From NCBI RefSeq assembly GCF_014467075.1, contig NZ_AP023027.1:2545501-2609500 (forward strand): 64,000 nt of DNA. The letters are read 5' to 3'. The DNA comes from Anaerostipes caccae L1-92. Lineage in GTDB: Bacteria > Bacillota > Clostridia > Lachnospirales > Lachnospiraceae. The number at the start of each line of letters is the position of its first letter. The first letter of the stretch is position 1. The notes beneath the pieces were generated by a model. The model was not told the DNA's origin, searched no databases, and saw only the letters and a list, made by a program, of their open reading frames with translations. This document shows positions 39,127 to 49,379 of this stretch, in pieces. The translations under genes were made by a program, and so were the position numbers.

Positions 39127-40056
39127 TTATACCACATTTGCTGTTTTCTTATTAATGCGTTTTTTATCATTATTTTCGGTGTGCCCGGACTTTCTGCCCA
39201 AATCCGTCTCCGAGATCAAAATCGCCGCCATCACCAGGGCAAAACCGATCAGGATCTTCACCGTCGCCTTCTCACCATAAAAAATCACGCTGAAAAGCAC
39301 ACCGAACACGGACTCCAGACTCAGGATCAGAGATGCGGAAGATGAACTCACCCGGCTCTGCCCTATACTCTGAAAGGTAACAGCCACAGCCGTACACATG
39401 ATCACCAGATAGGCCAGGCTTCCTGCCTGTCCGACCGTCCAGTGGATAGCACTGATGTCTTCGGTAAATACAGAAATCCCTGCACCCCAGAGTCCAGCAA
39501 ATAAAAATTGCACGATCGTCAGCAGCACCGGATCTTTCTGACCGCTTTTCATGCCAAGATAGGCAATATGAAGGGAAAATAAAAGGCCTCCCACCAGAGT
39601 CAATCCATCACCGATTCCTATACTAAGGTTCCCATCCAGTGAAATCAGTCCAATACCCGTAATGCAGATCAATGCGGCCAGGAAGTTTTGCTTTGTAGGC
39701 TTCTTCTTTTGCCATATCCATGTGACAAAAGGGACTGCCACACAGTAGATCGCCGTTAAAAATGCATTCTTTCCGGGCGTCGTGTGATACAGTCCTTCGG
39801 TCTGGAACCAGTAAGCCCAGAACCAAAATCCTCCCAGCACAAATCCTGTCTTAAAGTAACTTTTATCTATTTTCCCCAGTCTCTTATGAAAAAAGATACA
39901 CAAGAGCAATGCCCCTGCTAAAAATCTTGTCCCAAGCAGAAAATTTTCCGGGACATTGGCAATGGTATTTTTCATAATAAAAAAGGAACTGCCCCATATC
40001 AGTGCAGAACCGAACAACGCTGCCTTGCCGAGCTTCGTTTTATTTTTTTGATTCAT
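39127..40056 (-). CDS. EamA/DMT-family transporter
   Basis: 309 residues from the ATG at 40054-40056 (MNQKNKTKLGKAALFG). Ten membrane helices in two EamA repeats; conserved segments are ALIWGSSFFIMKN, the LLGTRFLAGALLL helix, and in repeat 2 SLILSLESVFGVLFSVIFYGE. A likely exporter of metabolites or amino acids, substrate unknown. Divergent from the radical-SAM gene. Confidence 0.93.
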   Translation of the reverse strand: MNQKNKTKLGKAALFGSALIWGSSFFIMKNTIANVPENFLLGTRFLAGALLLCIFFHKRLGKIDKSYFKTGFVLGGFWFWAYWFQTEGLYHTTPGKNAFLTAIYCVAVPFVTWIWQKKKPTKQNFLAALICITGIGLISLDGNLSIGIGDGLTLVGGLLFSLHIAYLGMKSGQKDPVLLTIVQFLFAGLWGAGISVFTEDISAIHWTVGQAGSLAYLVIMCTAVAVTFQSIGQSRVSSSSASLILSLESVFGVLFSVIFYGEKATVKILIGFALVMAAILISETDLGRKSGHTENNDKKRINKKTANVV

Positions 40057-40139
40057 ACAAACCCTCATCCTTCTGAATTGTTTTTCCGTTAAGTATAATA
40101 ATACCATTTACCAATACATTGCCGCAACTTCTTTTCACC

Positions 40140-40153
40140 CGAACTTTTGTTCT
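40140..40153. promoter_or_regulatory. LexA/DinR-type SOS box
   Basis: CGAACTTTTGTTCT contains GAAC-N4-GTTC, the core of the Gram-positive LexA box. It lies 9 nt before the -35 of the radical-SAM repair gene. A degenerate second copy, GAAC-AAAC-ATTC, lies at 40195-40206 just after the -10. Confidence 0.65.
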
Positions 40154-40161
40154 TTTCCTCC

Positions 40162-40190
40162 TTGCTTTTTATATGGCACTATGCTAGAAT
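40162..40190 (+). promoter_or_regulatory. Promoter of the radical-SAM DNA-repair gene
   Basis: TTGCTT (40162-40167), 17 nt, TAGAAT (40185-40190), about 35 nt before the ATG at 40225, flanked by a strong and a weak LexA-type box. Confidence 0.7.
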
Positions 40191-40224
40191 AAGAGAACAA
40201 ACATTCGATATTGTGAGGTGGATT

Positions 40225-41697
40225 ATGGAAACTATCAGTCCTTCCCTGTCATTGCAGGAGAAGCTAACAATTCTAGCAGACGCAGCCAAGTACGACGTAG
40301 CCTGCACGTCCAGTGGAGCCGACCGCAGAGGTGAAAAGGGAAAACTGGGCAACGGAGTGGCTGCAGGCATCTGCCACAGCTTTGCATCCGACGGCCGCTG
40401 TGTCTCCCTTTTAAAGATACTTCAAAGTAATGAATGTATCTACGACTGCAGGTACTGCTTAAACCGCTCGTCCAATGACCGGGTGCGCACTACGTTCACC
40501 CCGGAAGAAGTCTGCCGCTTAGTCATCGAGTTCTACCGCCGAAACTATATCGAAGGGCTGTTTCTAAGTTCCGGTGTGGTAAAGAGTCCTTCCTATACGA
40601 TGGAACTCATGTGCCGGACACTGTCTATGTTAAGAAATCAGTATCATTTCAACGGCTATATCCATGTGAAAGCCATTCCCGGAGCGCCGGAAGAACTTCT
40701 GGAATCCATCGGATATCTCGCGGACCGCGTCAGCATTAATCTGGAACTGCCCACACCGGAAGGACTGAAGGATCTGGCCCCTCACAAGACACAGAAAACG
40801 ATCTTAAAACCCATGGAACAGATCCGTTCCGGCATCGCAGATCACCGGCTGTCCATCGGCAAGGACCCTATGATGGAACGCTTCGGCGGCAACCGCAGTC
40901 TAAAGCACACGATCTTCGATGATGTCCGATCCGGCCGCATCGGGGAGCACAGACAGCTGGCATCAAACTCTTTCCTCCCGCCCGCTAAGGACAAGAATGC
41001 ACCCTTTGTCCCCGCCGGGCAGAGCACTCAGATGATCGTTGGAGCTACCGCAGAGAATGATCTTCAGCTTCTTTCTGTCACTCAGCAGCTGTACCAGAAG
41101 TTTGATCTGAAACGTGTCTTCTTCTCAGCCTATGTCCCGCTCAATGAAGATTCCCGCCTTCCCTCCCTGGATACCGCCCCTCCTCTGTTAAGGGAACATC
41201 GTCTCTATCAGGCCGACTGGCTGCTGAGGTTTTACGGCTTTCATGCAGAGGAACTGCTGAGTACTGACAGGCCCAACTTCAATATCATGCTGGACCCCAA
41301 GTGCGACTGGGCACTGCGGCACCTGGAGCTTTTCCCTGTGGAGATCAACCGCGCCAGCTACGCAGATCTTCTGAGAGTTCCCGGCATCGGCACCAAATCC
41401 GCCTACCGTATTGTCAAGAGCCGCCGACAGCGCTCCCTGACATTTGAAAACCTGAAAAAGATGGGGATCGTCCTGAAACGGGCCAAGTATTTTATAACCT
41501 GTAACGGAAAGATGATGTTTCATATCCCGATCGAGGAGAACTTCATCACCCGTCAGCTGATCGGAGAGGATTACAAAAAGTCCTGGGAGATTGATCATCC
41601 CCAGACCTATGAACAGCTGTCCCTGTTTGACGATAAGAATTTTGTATCGGCCCCCTCAGCCGAAGATACCTGCAAGTCTCTGAGCGGACAAATATAA
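40225..41697 (+). CDS. Putative DNA modification/repair radical SAM protein (TIGR03916)
   Basis: 490 residues from the ATG at 40225, with GAGGTG upstream. The radical-SAM cluster motif is Cys71-x3-Cys75-x2-Cys78 in NECIYDCRYCLNR. The C-terminal part carries a helix-hairpin-helix DNA-binding element (ASYADLLRVPGIGTKSAYRIV). Extra conserved pieces include GLFLSSGV and ISINLELPTPEGL-like strand (VSINLELPTPEGL). This matches the family named putative DNA modification/repair radical SAM protein, whose partner is the DUF4130 protein encoded next. The chemistry is not established. A LexA-type box precedes the promoter. Confidence 0.92.
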   Translation: METISPSLSLQEKLTILADAAKYDVACTSSGADRRGEKGKLGNGVAAGICHSFASDGRCVSLLKILQSNECIYDCRYCLNRSSNDRVRTTFTPEEVCRLVIEFYRRNYIEGLFLSSGVVKSPSYTMELMCRTLSMLRNQYHFNGYIHVKAIPGAPEELLESIGYLADRVSINLELPTPEGLKDLAPHKTQKTILKPMEQIRSGIADHRLSIGKDPMMERFGGNRSLKHTIFDDVRSGRIGEHRQLASNSFLPPAKDKNAPFVPAGQSTQMIVGATAENDLQLLSVTQQLYQKFDLKRVFFSAYVPLNEDSRLPSLDTAPPLLREHRLYQADWLLRFYGFHAEELLSTDRPNFNIMLDPKCDWALRHLELFPVEINRASYADLLRVPGIGTKSAYRIVKSRRQRSLTFENLKKMGIVLKRAKYFITCNGKMMFHIPIEENFITRQLIGEDYKKSWEIDHPQTYEQLSLFDDKNFVSAPSAEDTCKSLSGQI

Positions 41698-41760
41698 AAA
41701 ACAGTAACAGTTTTAATATTTGCCTGAAAAACGGCCGACTGAAAATAATGGAGAAAACGC

Positions 41761-42510
41761 ATGACCATTTTCACCTGCAAAGATACGTTTGAGGATATGA
41801 TGTCCTGTATATACACTGCCTGGGCATCCCGCTTAGGCCACAAAAACATCCAATTAAAAACTGAACCCATAGGGAATCTGGAACTGTTCTGTGATTACCG
41901 CCATGTAGATCACGATCCCGATCAGACCGCCAGTGTCATCCGTTCCATCCAAAAAAAGATCTCTTTTCGTGCCTATCAGATGGTATACCGCGCTGCTATG
42001 TCTTTTCAGGAAGAAAAACTGGATATCATCTACCGGTTCCTGATCTATGGGTTTCACTATGGGCCTTCCGTTGTCAATATGCTGCAGGAGCCTGCTGTGA
42101 TGAATCTGTTTGAACTGGACCGTAAAGTTATGAATGAAGCTCACTTATTCCGGGAGTTTCTGCGTTTTTTCGAAATAGATCATGTTCTTATCTCCCATAT
42201 TGAACCCAAGTGTGATGTCCTGACCATCCTGGCTCCCCAGTTTACGGACCGCATGCCCTCAGAGAACTGGATGATCATCGACGATAACCGGAAAACTGCC
42301 GTCGTTCATCCCTGTGATCATGATTACTATATGACCACCCTCTCAGAGGATGAATTAAACCGTCTGAAGACCTCTGAGATTTCTGATCTTTACACAGATC
42401 TCTGGAAAGTATTTTTTGAGACGATCGGTGTAGAAGCCAGAAAAAATCCCCGCTGTCAGAGAACCATGATGCCGCTCTGGTACCGCAAACACATGACAGA
42501 ATTCCTTTAA
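41761..42510 (+). CDS. TIGR03915/DUF4130 DNA-metabolism partner protein
   Basis: 249 residues. The family pattern is visible: FTCKDTFEDMMSCIYTAWASRLG at the start, then DPDQTASVIRSIQKKIS, HEAHLFREFLRF-type segment (NEAHLFREFLRFFEIDHVLISHIEP) and the C-terminal RTMMPLWYRKHMTEF. In other bacteria this domain is often fused to a uracil-DNA glycosylase domain; here it ends without one. It follows the radical-SAM gene by 63 nt and is expected to act with it in DNA repair. Confidence 0.9.
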   Translation: MTIFTCKDTFEDMMSCIYTAWASRLGHKNIQLKTEPIGNLELFCDYRHVDHDPDQTASVIRSIQKKISFRAYQMVYRAAMSFQEEKLDIIYRFLIYGFHYGPSVVNMLQEPAVMNLFELDRKVMNEAHLFREFLRFFEIDHVLISHIEPKCDVLTILAPQFTDRMPSENWMIIDDNRKTAVVHPCDHDYYMTTLSEDELNRLKTSEISDLYTDLWKVFFETIGVEARKNPRCQRTMMPLWYRKHMTEFL

Positions 42511-45953: not shown

Positions 45954-47324
45954 TCACCGCTTAAGAGATTTTACTTTAGAAAATTTACTGTAAATTTTCT
46001 TTTTCTTTACAGTCTGATACGATCTGACTTTAAAATAGTACCTTTTTTTCTTTTTTAACTTGCCTTTTGTGTAAGATGCTTTTTTTGCAGATACAGTTGC
46101 TATCCTTTTAAAACCGGAAGACTTTTTCCTGGACATGTAAATCTGATATTTAGACACGCCGGAAATTTTTGACCAGCTTATTTTAATCCCCTTTGATCCG
46201 CTCTTCTTCAGCTTCTTTATTTTATTCGTCTTTGGGATCACCGTAATTTTGCAGGAAGCCTTTTTTCCGTTTCCTGTTCTTCCGGTGATAACCGCTGTCC
46301 CTACCTTTTTCGCCGTCACTTTGCCTGACGAACTGACCGATGCCACAGACGAACTGGAGCTGGACCACTGAACTGAAGGATATGAGTTCCTAGGTTCTAT
46401 GTAACTTCTCAGTGTATAGGAGGAACCTTTCTTCAGCGACAGGGATTTTTTATTCAGTTTGATGTTTTTTGCCGGAATGCTGCTGATCAGAAAGTTTATA
46501 TCCACATTTCCTCTGATGCCGCTGACTATGCCTCTGTCGGTGCACTGCCACATCTGATAGCTGCCTGTATAAGTGCATTTGCTTGCCCACTGGGCAACCC
46601 ACTTGGAATATTTATTAAATGCAGAACTTGTCAATTTTTCTTTCCACCAGCTTGTATTAGCGTAAATACCTATGTTAGAATATCCGGCTGTCTTTAAAAC
46701 AGCCTTAAATGCCTCTGCATTTTTACTATATTGATTCTTTGACAGATTACTGATCGAATTAGCTTCCAGATCCATGTATATAGGATAATTCGGTTTATGT
46801 CCGGTTAATAATTTTAAAGTAAATCTTGCTTCTGCCTGAGCTTGAGCCGTGTTTTTTGCCTGAGAAAAGATATATACTCCATATGGAATACCCAATCGTT
46901 CACACTCTTTTACATTATATTGCCACTGAGTATCTTCGTCATATGTGCTGTTTGCGCACCGGATAACAGCAAAATCAATCCCTGATGCTTTCACCATCTC
47001 CCAGTCAATCTTTCCCTGATGCTGACTGACATCTATCCCCTTTTTCACTGCGCCCGGAATCGGATTCCCCAGATCATTGACAAACATGCCGTTGACTTTA
47101 TTCCAGGCATTTGAATATGGTTTTGAAGCTCTGCTGAAAGACTGTCCGGGATAGATCGGTGTACCGTTTTTGTAACGCCAGCTGTTCTCTGCTCCCTGTC
47201 CTTCCTTCTGTTTAGGTTCTGATTGGTTACCGTTTACGAGTACCGGCAGTGCAGCCGACATCAAACTGACAGTCAAAAGTACCGCGAAAACTTTCTTTGC
47301 CGCTCTTAAAAAACTTTTCTTCAT
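45954..47324 (-). CDS. Secreted GH25 lysozyme with Ig-like (Big_2) and C-terminal module, paralogue 1
   Basis: 456 residues. Signal peptide (MKKSFLRAAKKVFAVLLTVSLMSAALPVL). A GH25 muramidase domain covers about 90-285: GIDVSQHQGKIDWEMVKASGIDFAVIR and the catalytic YPIYMDLEANS (DxE). A bacterial Ig-like Big_2 domain follows (about 290-365: YTLRSYIEPRNSYPSVQWSSSSSSVASVSSSGKVTAKKVG). The last 85 residues are a very basic fibronectin III-like module (SWSKISGVSKYQIYMSRKKSSG). Closely similar to the gene at 47964. Likely a wall-remodelling or lytic enzyme held at the surface by its modules. Confidence 0.93.
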   Translation of the reverse strand: MKKSFLRAAKKVFAVLLTVSLMSAALPVLVNGNQSEPKQKEGQGAENSWRYKNGTPIYPGQSFSRASKPYSNAWNKVNGMFVNDLGNPIPGAVKKGIDVSQHQGKIDWEMVKASGIDFAVIRCANSTYDEDTQWQYNVKECERLGIPYGVYIFSQAKNTAQAQAEARFTLKLLTGHKPNYPIYMDLEANSISNLSKNQYSKNAEAFKAVLKTAGYSNIGIYANTSWWKEKLTSSAFNKYSKWVAQWASKCTYTGSYQMWQCTDRGIVSGIRGNVDINFLISSIPAKNIKLNKKSLSLKKGSSYTLRSYIEPRNSYPSVQWSSSSSSVASVSSSGKVTAKKVGTAVITGRTGNGKKASCKITVIPKTNKIKKLKKSGSKGIKISWSKISGVSKYQIYMSRKKSSGFKRIATVSAKKASYTKGKLKKKKRYYFKVRSYQTVKKKKIYSKFSKVKSLKR

Positions 47325-47451: not shown

Positions 47452-47889
47452 ATGAATCGTTTAAGAGGGAACAAAAAAGGATTTACTTTAGTTGAATTAA
47501 TCGTCGTGCTGGTTATTCTGGCGATCCTGATCGCTTTGCTGGTGCCGACTCTGACCGGGTACATAGACAGAGCCAACAAACGCTCGGCCCATGCGGATTT
47601 AAAGCTGATCGCAAACGCTGCTACTTCTGCCTATGCGGAGGTTTATGCTGACAACAACAGTAAAAATGGTGAAGTAATCTATTCTTCGGGAGCCGGCTGG
47701 AGCCATGAGCAGGGTACCACCATAGATACCGATTTTAAGGATTCCTTCATGCATTATTTGGGAAGTGACATTGACTTTAGTAAAGTCCAGTATTTATACA
47801 TCAGCCCGGACCGCCTGACGATTATCTACAAATATAAATCTAAAAACTATACTTATCAGAGATACGATAACACCGTCACCATTAAATAA
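47452..47889 (+). CDS. Lone type IV prepilin-like protein
   Basis: 145 residues. A short basic leader ends in KKG, with prepilin peptidase cleavage expected between Gly10 and Phe11 (GFTLVELIVVLVILAILIALLVPTL), including the conserved Glu at mature position 5. The remaining 100 residues form a small, strand-rich head with no cysteines. ATG with GGATGGGG. No pilin-assembly ATPase, platform protein or prepilin peptidase lies in the window, so assembly would depend on genes elsewhere. It stands between two GH25 lysozyme genes. Confidence 0.92.
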   Translation: MNRLRGNKKGFTLVELIVVLVILAILIALLVPTLTGYIDRANKRSAHADLKLIANAATSAYAEVYADNNSKNGEVIYSSGAGWSHEQGTTIDTDFKDSFMHYLGSDIDFSKVQYLYISPDRLTIIYKYKSKNYTYQRYDNTVTIK

Positions 47890-47963: not shown

Positions 47964-49379
47964 CTATCTTTTTATTGATTTGATTGGACTGTAGCTGCTG
48001 TAATACTTGGTTTTTCCAACTGTTTTATAAGAACGTATTTTAAAATAGTAACGTTTGCCTCTCTTCAGTCCTTTTTTGGTAAAACTGAATGTTTTAGCTG
48101 ATGCAGTTTTTACCCTTTTATATCCGGAAGATTTCTTTTTTGACATATAAATCTGATATTTTGTAGTACCGCTAACTTTTGACCAGGTAACCTTAATGCT
48201 TTTCCTTCCCGATTTTTTAAGCTTTTTAATTTTGTTCGTCCTGGGCCGTACCGTAACCTTGCAGACTGCCTTTTTCCCGTTGGATGTCTTCGCTGTGATC
48301 GTTGCTTTCCCCACGCCCTTTGCAGTGATCTTTCCCCTGGAAGAAACAGCTGCCACTTTTTTATTGGAACTGGTCCATGTCACCGTTTTGTTGGAAGCAT
48401 TGGATGGCGCGATTGATTTTTTCAATGTATAGGAAGAACCGTTCTTAAGCTTCAGGCTTGTCTTATTCAGCTTTATTGACGAAACAGATATCGTCTGCAG
48501 TGCATTGACGTTCCATGAGCCTATTTTAAAATTCAGATCTACATTCGTACCGATTCCGCTGACCTTTCCAGAATCTGTACACTGCCACATATGATAAGTT
48601 CCGCTATAATTACAGTGGTAATTGTACTGTGCAACCCATCTTGGATACTCATTAAAGACAGTACTTGTAAGCTTCTCAGTAAACCAATACTTATTAGCAT
48701 ATACCCCTACATCCTTATATCCAGCATCCGATAATGTATTTATAAAAGTAACCGCGATCTGCCCGAGAATTTTGTTGGACAATCCTTCCTGAACATTATC
48801 TTCCATATCGTAATATATCGGATAACATAGCTTTTTCCCCTTTATGCATCGTATTACATATTCTGCTTCTTTTTTGGCATCTGTTATACTCGTTGCGTAA
48901 GAGTAAATATAAGCCCCGTAAGGCATTCCAATCCGTTCACATTCAGATGAATTATATGCCCAAGTAGGATCATCCCGATCCGTTGAATTCTTTCTGGATC
49001 CTATTTTTAAAATTGCATAATCCACTCCATCTGCCTTAACTTTTTCCCAATCAACTTTTTCATTCCATTTGCTTACATCAATGCCCCTTGCAGTTGCATT
49101 TGGAATAGGGTCACCCAGAGAATTTAGGAATACTCCATTTACTTTTGTCCAAGCATTAGCTACCGCTCTGGCTCCTCTGGCCGTCATAGATGGACCTATC
49201 GGCTCCTGCTGTTTTACCGGTTTTCCATCTTTAAACCGCCAACTGTTGGCCGGATCATGTTCTTCCGCACTTTTTTCTTCCGCAAAAACAGAAGCATGGT
49301 TGATGTAAGAAATTCCAGCAGCCAATACGATTGCTGAAATAAATACTGCAAGTTTATTCTTTACCCCTTTTACTCTCAC
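47964..49379 (-). CDS. Secreted GH25 lysozyme with Ig-like and C-terminal module, paralogue 2
   Basis: 471 residues with the same plan as the gene at 45954: signal peptide (VFISAIVLAAGISYINHASVFAE), GH25 domain (GIDVSKWNEKVDWEKVKADGVDYAILK and catalytic YPIYYDMEDN), a Big_2 domain (IAPSNASNKTVTWTSSNKKVAAVSSRGKITAKGVG) and a basic C-terminal module ending GKTKYYSSYSPIKSIKR. The C-terminal modules of the two are the most alike. In the catalytic strand DLEAN of paralogue 1 becomes DMEDN here, both keeping DxE. Candidate promoter TTGAAA (49433-49428), 16 nt, TATACT (49411-49406). Confidence 0.93.
   Translation of the reverse strand: MRVKGVKNKLAVFISAIVLAAGISYINHASVFAEEKSAEEHDPANSWRFKDGKPVKQQEPIGPSMTARGARAVANAWTKVNGVFLNSLGDPIPNATARGIDVSKWNEKVDWEKVKADGVDYAILKIGSRKNSTDRDDPTWAYNSSECERIGMPYGAYIYSYATSITDAKKEAEYVIRCIKGKKLCYPIYYDMEDNVQEGLSNKILGQIAVTFINTLSDAGYKDVGVYANKYWFTEKLTSTVFNEYPRWVAQYNYHCNYSGTYHMWQCTDSGKVSGIGTNVDLNFKIGSWNVNALQTISVSSIKLNKTSLKLKNGSSYTLKKSIAPSNASNKTVTWTSSNKKVAAVSSRGKITAKGVGKATITAKTSNGKKAVCKVTVRPRTNKIKKLKKSGRKSIKVTWSKVSGTTKYQIYMSKKKSSGYKRVKTASAKTFSFTKKGLKRGKRYYFKIRSYKTVGKTKYYSSYSPIKSIKR

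Follow-up and report, generated by a model that had tools for sequence, protein, structure and literature searches.

The gene pair studied here, a radical-SAM gene followed by a DUF4130 gene in Anaerostipes caccae L1-92, can be set beside several described systems. Among the closest is CAC3343-CAC3344 of Clostridium acetobutylicum, a radical-SAM gene of the same name and a gene to which the report gives no function. LexA control of this pair was predicted in 2013, and the report proposes it on the basis of footprinting and expression data (PMC3828012). For Bacteroidetes, SOS control has been described for a pair with a uracil-DNA glycosylase (UDG), COG1573-COG4277; the paper also cites Verrucomicrobia and Alphaproteobacteria and lists splB as SOS-regulated in several species (PMC8565304). 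Other sources list radical-SAM proteins of unnamed family in further LexA regulons (PMC9380542, PMC7739468), table a radical-SAM protein of the same name without a function (PMC8307549), and call DUF4130 a predicted mutagenesis-related enzyme (PMC3765255).

We analyzed a 64-kb stretch, referred to as the window, which covers positions 2545501-2609500 of the single-contig, 3.59-Mb genome of A. caccae L1-92. COG4277 is, we assume, the same radical-SAM family as the one encoded there. Like COG1573-COG4277, the A. caccae pair appears to be a two-gene SOS unit; in the former, however, the UDG belongs to the pair and the LexA motif differs, whereas DUF4130 stands alone in the latter. CAC3343-CAC3344 comes from another clostridial lineage; for the A. 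caccae pair, in contrast, the boxes are often paired among orthologues, and we followed their link to LexA over 74 genomes. Literature searches under the names TIGR03915 and TIGR03916 retrieved no paper, and among the matches listed for LexA with Lachnospiraceae or Anaerostipes, the pair was not named in the title or the start of the abstract. SOS control of the pair is thus an extension of a known idea, to which we add a wider comparative basis and a connection with the loss of LexA.

SOS control had been suggested by a first-pass annotation made from the DNA letters. It is strongly supported in silico by five lines of evidence, namely the resemblance of the boxes to those at lexA and recA in this genome, their position at the putative promoter, their recurrence among orthologues, the dependence on LexA, and a different box in Alphaproteobacteria. 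From these sequence-based data, we estimate the probability that the radical-SAM/DUF4130 unit is under SOS control at roughly 0.93.

LexA-type boxes at the putative radical-SAM promoter

The upstream region and the two genes comprise the following features.

40141..40152, plus strand: predicted LexA box 1, GAACTTTTGTTC, exact consensus, matrix score 14.6, 5' of the -35 hexamer
40162..40167, plus strand: putative -35 hexamer TTGCTT, read by eye, with a 17-nucleotide (nt) spacer to the -10 hexamer
40185..40190, plus strand: putative -10 hexamer TAGAAT, read by eye
40195..40206, plus strand: predicted LexA box 2, GAACAAACATTC, matrix score 13.9, over the likely transcription start
40216..40221, plus strand: putative ribosome-binding site AGGTGG, read by eye, with the ATG at 40225
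40225..41697, plus strand: radical-SAM gene, TIGR03916 (680 bits, cut-off 343.5), PF04055 over cut-off
41761..42510, plus strand: DUF4130 gene, TIGR03915 (275 bits, cut-off 112.25), 249 amino acids, no UDG domain, second in the unit

Both family scores lie far above their cut-offs, in agreement with the earlier assignment of the pair to TIGR03916 and TIGR03915, and the DUF4130 protein also matches PF13566 with 170 bits. Box 1 was found exactly where the first-pass annotation had placed it, just upstream of the -35 hexamer, and is the sole exact GAAC-N4-GTTC anywhere in the window. Box 2 lies 54 nt from box 1, deviates at one of the eight fixed bases, and resembles a box of the recA promoter of the same genome, CGAACAAATATTCG. 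The order is therefore box 1, -35, spacer, -10, box 2, ribosome-binding site, and ATG, with the two boxes flanking TTGCTT-17-TAGAAT, a hexamer pair that is missing from the output of an automatic consensus promoter scan. The left neighbor, a gene for an EamA-type transporter (named by eye; 39127-40107, minus strand), is divergent.

The genome encodes its own LexA at genome position 2069677 (TIGR00498, 229 bits, over cut-off). Counts of the bare consensus lent no support; sites at other SOS promoters were therefore compiled into a matrix. This symmetric matrix of 16 columns, with the consensus ACGAACATATGTTCGT, was trained on 48 distinct sites from 18 lexA upstream regions (one just 10 nt long) and the organism's own recA upstream region. 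Radical-SAM promoters were left out of the training, and four genomes (G000, G013, G015, G019) supplied both a lexA upstream region for training and a radical-SAM upstream region for testing. In A. caccae, the matrix finds four sites in the lexA promoter and two in that of recA. The two boxes of the window fit this LexA motif and are the sole sites with a score of at least 12 within the 64 kb. In 5000 Markov-resampled upstream sequences, a site of 14.6 occurred in six and two sites of 13.9 in none. Box 2, described earlier as a degenerate copy behind the -10 hexamer, is indeed present there and scores nearly as high as box 1. Further promoter-located sites in this genome belong to recA, lexA, and a gene resembling Y-family polymerases, all model scores of which are below cut-off. 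For this survey only promoter-located hits of a wider pattern were used, and the resulting list of the SOS regulon is incomplete.

Conservation of the boxes and dependence on LexA

A comparison of orthologous upstream regions had been set beforehand as the refutation test, and LexA control withstood it. We compared 57 loci, consisting of 27 named loci, 29 from sampled genomes of the order, and the window, and searched 250 nt upstream of the radical-SAM gene for sites scoring at least 10. In this set, three near-identical pairs (L089/L090, L107/L112, L054/L056) are each counted separately, a named and an unnamed locus could stem from one species, and gene starts were set by a script rule and are possibly off at single loci. 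At least one box was found in 53 of the 57 loci, with two or more boxes in 34, one in 19, and none in four. Among control windows within the loci, which are mostly coding, 28 of 1301 reached a score of 10; this comparison comprises 58 loci, as it includes L094, a duplicate of the window kept outside the 57. The closest named orthologue, from Anaerostipes hominis (L034), is 97% identical. Of the 34 two-box loci, 20, the window included, have a TTG-type -35 and a -10 hexamer in the interval that separates the last two boxes, as judged with a loose pattern; in one of the 20, this gap is 195 nt.

No box was present within 100 nt upstream of the DUF4130 gene in any of 54 loci; thus, the pair appears to be switched as one unit from the radical-SAM promoter. 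Of 196 genomes sampled from the order, 76 have a match to the radical-SAM family above its cut-off. In two of these (G126, G112), the gene is split over contigs; the 74 genomes used below have it unbroken. A DUF4130 gene lies near the radical-SAM gene on the same strand in 70 of the 74, the exceptions being G073, G030, G024, and G118, in the last of which a contig end interrupts the locus. More distant Bacillota loci (20 minus L258, in which no radical-SAM gene was found) had an upstream box of at least 10 in 15 of 19 cases, compared to two of 78 control windows. In L258 and L228, a DUF4130 gene was seen with no radical-SAM gene in the 2.4 kb upstream.

Within the 74 genomes, the box was clearly associated with LexA: it was detected in 58 of the 61 genomes with LexA, but in only three of the 13 with no LexA match over cut-off (Fisher 1e-7, with genomes taken as independent and kinship not corrected). 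The ten box-free LexA-negative genomes belong to six families (f19, f25, f18, f9, f23, f12). All four box-less loci of the 57 (L100, L102, L104, L109) come from family f19, and no LexA over cut-off was found in any of the eight f19 genomes searched.

A second radical-SAM paralogue, 32-35% identical, was observed in seven loci. It lacks C27 and C59 and has no DUF4130 match in its stretch; LexA-type sites of at least 16 occur in four of the loci (L218, L221, L222, L224), and of the other three (L219, L220, L223), L219 and L223, both from the LexA-less family f19, have the two lowest scores. At L212:2424-2885, an S24-type regulator gene directly precedes a radical-SAM gene that has no DUF4130 beside it, in a genome without LexA over cut-off.

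Relatives of the radical-SAM protein were also found on ten phage records (nine below 60% identity) and 158 plasmid records. On one Acinetobacter phage record (L277), the gene after the relative is annotated as "probable DNA metabolism protein". From 55 of the 158 plasmid records, we picked nine alphaproteobacterial loci representing nine genera. GAAC-N7-GAAC, presumably the alphaproteobacterial LexA site, was spotted by eye in the Thioclava locus L275, which prompted a test of the remaining eight; it lies within 200 nt upstream of the radical-SAM gene in all nine, the gene start being assumed for the unannotated record L284. Only a single further match to either direct-repeat pattern occurred within these loci. 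In six of them (L275, L279, L280, L281, L282, L286), the next gene downstream is annotated as UdgX family; for L283 and L284, whose gene table is incomplete, no partner is annotated at this place, and L285 reaches the record end. The Thioclava locus, the one scanned, shares with A. caccae the radical-SAM family, the adjoining DUF4130, and an SOS-type box upstream, but differs in its box, in the absence of C426, and in UdgX being fused to the C-terminus of DUF4130. In a Bacteroides locus (L276), DUF4130 stands alone. An SOS tie of the radical-SAM gene is probable in Alphaproteobacteria as well.

The two proteins and the uracil-glycosylase question

The radical-SAM gene contains three further features.

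40303..40401, plus strand: stretch encoding the extra cysteines C27, C50, and C59, invariant in 47/47 sequences of alignment A2 and in 75/75 further sequences (at least 43% identity)
40435..40458, plus strand: CX3CX2C radical-SAM cluster motif, C71/C75/C78, invariant in the same 47/47 and 75/75 sequences
41338..41457, plus strand: putative helix-hairpin-helix (HhH) DNA-binding region, residues 372-411, PF12836 over cut-off

The three invariant N-terminal cysteines suggest, with odds slightly better than even, that the protein holds a second iron-sulfur cluster. Two points speak against this assignment: C426 is missing in 14 of the 75 further sequences, which makes the fourth ligand uncertain, and the structure model has low confidence for residues 20-60, the segment with the extra cysteines. 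A full site of four conserved cysteines was dropped on account of C426, and only three are claimed. A single-sequence search revealed no close relative among solved structures.

The 249-residue DUF4130 protein matched only DUF4130 and TIGR03915 and contains no UDG domain. The lack of the fusion seen in relatives, pointed out in the first-pass annotation, is real for this protein but misleading as a peculiarity, as its absence is usual throughout the phylum. Of 398 Bacillota genomes, 78 have a DUF4130 match above cut-off, and the listed open frames measure at most 388 residues, compared to 478 for the Thioclava fusion; thus, none of the frames listed for the 78 could accommodate a UDG fusion. 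The search for a separate UDG gene, proposed along with that remark, yielded three UDG-superfamily proteins elsewhere in the A. caccae genome, a uracil-DNA glycosylase and a deoxyinosine glycosylase, both named from family models, and a third PF03167 protein that matched no NCBIfam model. The third (L009:1348-1971) adjoins a regulator-like reading frame, as seen by eye. An SOS-controlled separate UDG was dropped as a candidate, the best matrix scores in the three loci of 3.3-3.5 kb being 8.2, 5.5, and 6.1.

In the structure prediction, the DUF4130 fold resembles DHH phosphoesterases, which we keep as a lead only. The resemblance finds no profile support in a comparison with 11 NrnA-like and nine RecJ-like sequences (named by eye), and this counts against it. 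Apart from weak singletons, DUF4130 itself was the only Pfam match among 49 DUF4130 members, and the best hit of a profile search against the PDB had an E-value of 0.28. The only conserved Asp/His columns are D174 (48/49) and H128 (44/49); the protein contains no DHH string, and the metal-binding motifs of DHH proteins are not matched. That DUF4130 is a DNA-binding partner is a tentative assignment, somewhat short of an even chance.

Alternative explanations and a possible mode of action

Several observations weigh against LexA control. The bare consensus with at most one mismatch is not enriched in the window (22 occurrences vs. 24.7 in shuffles), nor is exact GAAC-N4-GTTC enriched genome-wide (24 places vs. 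34 for the reversed control); besides that of the window, 20 of the 23 places lie within open frames of at least 80 codons. The wider pattern gave 25 strand-hits in the genome vs. 26 for its reversed control. Three LexA-positive genomes (G052, G161, G073) lack a box, and three LexA-negative ones carry boxes. The latter (G183, G159, G145) are drafts with LexA-positive congeners, and a fragment of LexA is present in G145, so that these negative calls are probably draft gaps. Several LexA-negative genomes are incomplete, the box-free ones ranging from 74% to 100% completeness. The remaining four of the 19 distant loci score 9.8, 9.8, 8.3, and -2.7, the LexA status of the 19 genomes being unchecked.

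The short, unenriched consensus would fit chance matches, and boxes in a region shared with a divergent neighbor might serve the transporter gene instead. Both versions are extremely improbable given that resampling never produced two such sites in one upstream region, that the boxes recur in nearly all orthologous loci, and that they are also present where the gene on the left is codirectional and would have no use for them, as in Lachnospira eligens and, for the direct-repeat box, in L275, L279, L282, and L283. Another repressor with a similar site, for example an XRE-S24 protein, is a highly improbable substitute for LexA. Its best support comes from G024, LexA-less by cut-off, in which an S24-domain gene (52 bits to LexA, below cut-off) directly precedes the radical-SAM gene, and from A. 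caccae itself, which has a second match to the LexA model with 87 bits, again below cut-off. Yet the boxes agree with the ones that lexA and recA carry and are missing in ten of the 13 genomes without LexA over cut-off. A different question is what the induced proteins do. The pair might modify DNA or act in conflicts with mobile elements rather than repair lesions, an option that the family name leaves open and that the phage and plasmid relatives would suit. We consider it unlikely, as more than a third of the genomes sampled from the order have the family, in most cases behind a conserved DNA-damage switch, and as the alphaproteobacterial partners are named UdgX family; UdgX removes uracil and forms a bond with the abasic site (PMC10359453). 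Reversal of photodimers in the manner of spore photoproduct lyase would be in keeping with a 2013 paper that calls associated proteins SplB-like (PMC3765255). SplB is likewise a radical-SAM DNA repair enzyme, but the A. caccae protein has extra cysteines and the HhH region, and no match to the lyase family up to an E-value of 0.1 was obtained in the model library scanned, which does not contain TIGR00620. Such an activity seems decidedly unlikely.

Under SOS control, the two genes would form a single unit that very probably acts on DNA damage in a broad sense, and it is likely that the pair itself works on the damage. By analogy with LexA biology elsewhere, LexA would sit on the two operators around the one promoter and keep the unit off. 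RecA on single-stranded DNA would then trigger LexA self-cleavage, and both genes would be transcribed together with recA, lexA, and the Y-family polymerase gene. The radical-SAM protein may dock via its HhH region and direct its radical chemistry at a lesion or its sugar, with the second cluster probably on the three N-terminal cysteines. DUF4130 would serve it as a dedicated partner and might be the component that binds the lesion or the strand. Conceivably, the pair is an SOS-induced machine for direct repair by a new type of chemistry. In this scheme, a two-cluster HhH radical-SAM enzyme would attack a damaged nucleotide or an abasic site, DUF4130 would be a DHH-fold protein without catalytic activity that, like Cdc45, holds the DNA strand, and the alphaproteobacterial UdgX would mark uracil or abasic sites for the machine; the scheme as a whole is rather unlikely.

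To our knowledge, the spore photoproduct lyases are essentially the one enzyme class in which DNA repair by radical-SAM chemistry has been established, and the literature we found assigns no reaction to the present family. The firm SOS tie in Bacillota and the probable one in Alphaproteobacteria point to the time at which the proteins would be produced, and hence to the lesions to try. The cysteine pattern calls for oxygen-free purification and a look for two clusters.

Elsewhere in the window, two genes on the minus strand (45954-47324 and 47964-49379) encode GH25 lysozyme-like proteins with Ig-like repeats, as read by eye from the list of open reading frames, and a pilin-like frame, also recognized by eye, lies between them at 47452-47889.
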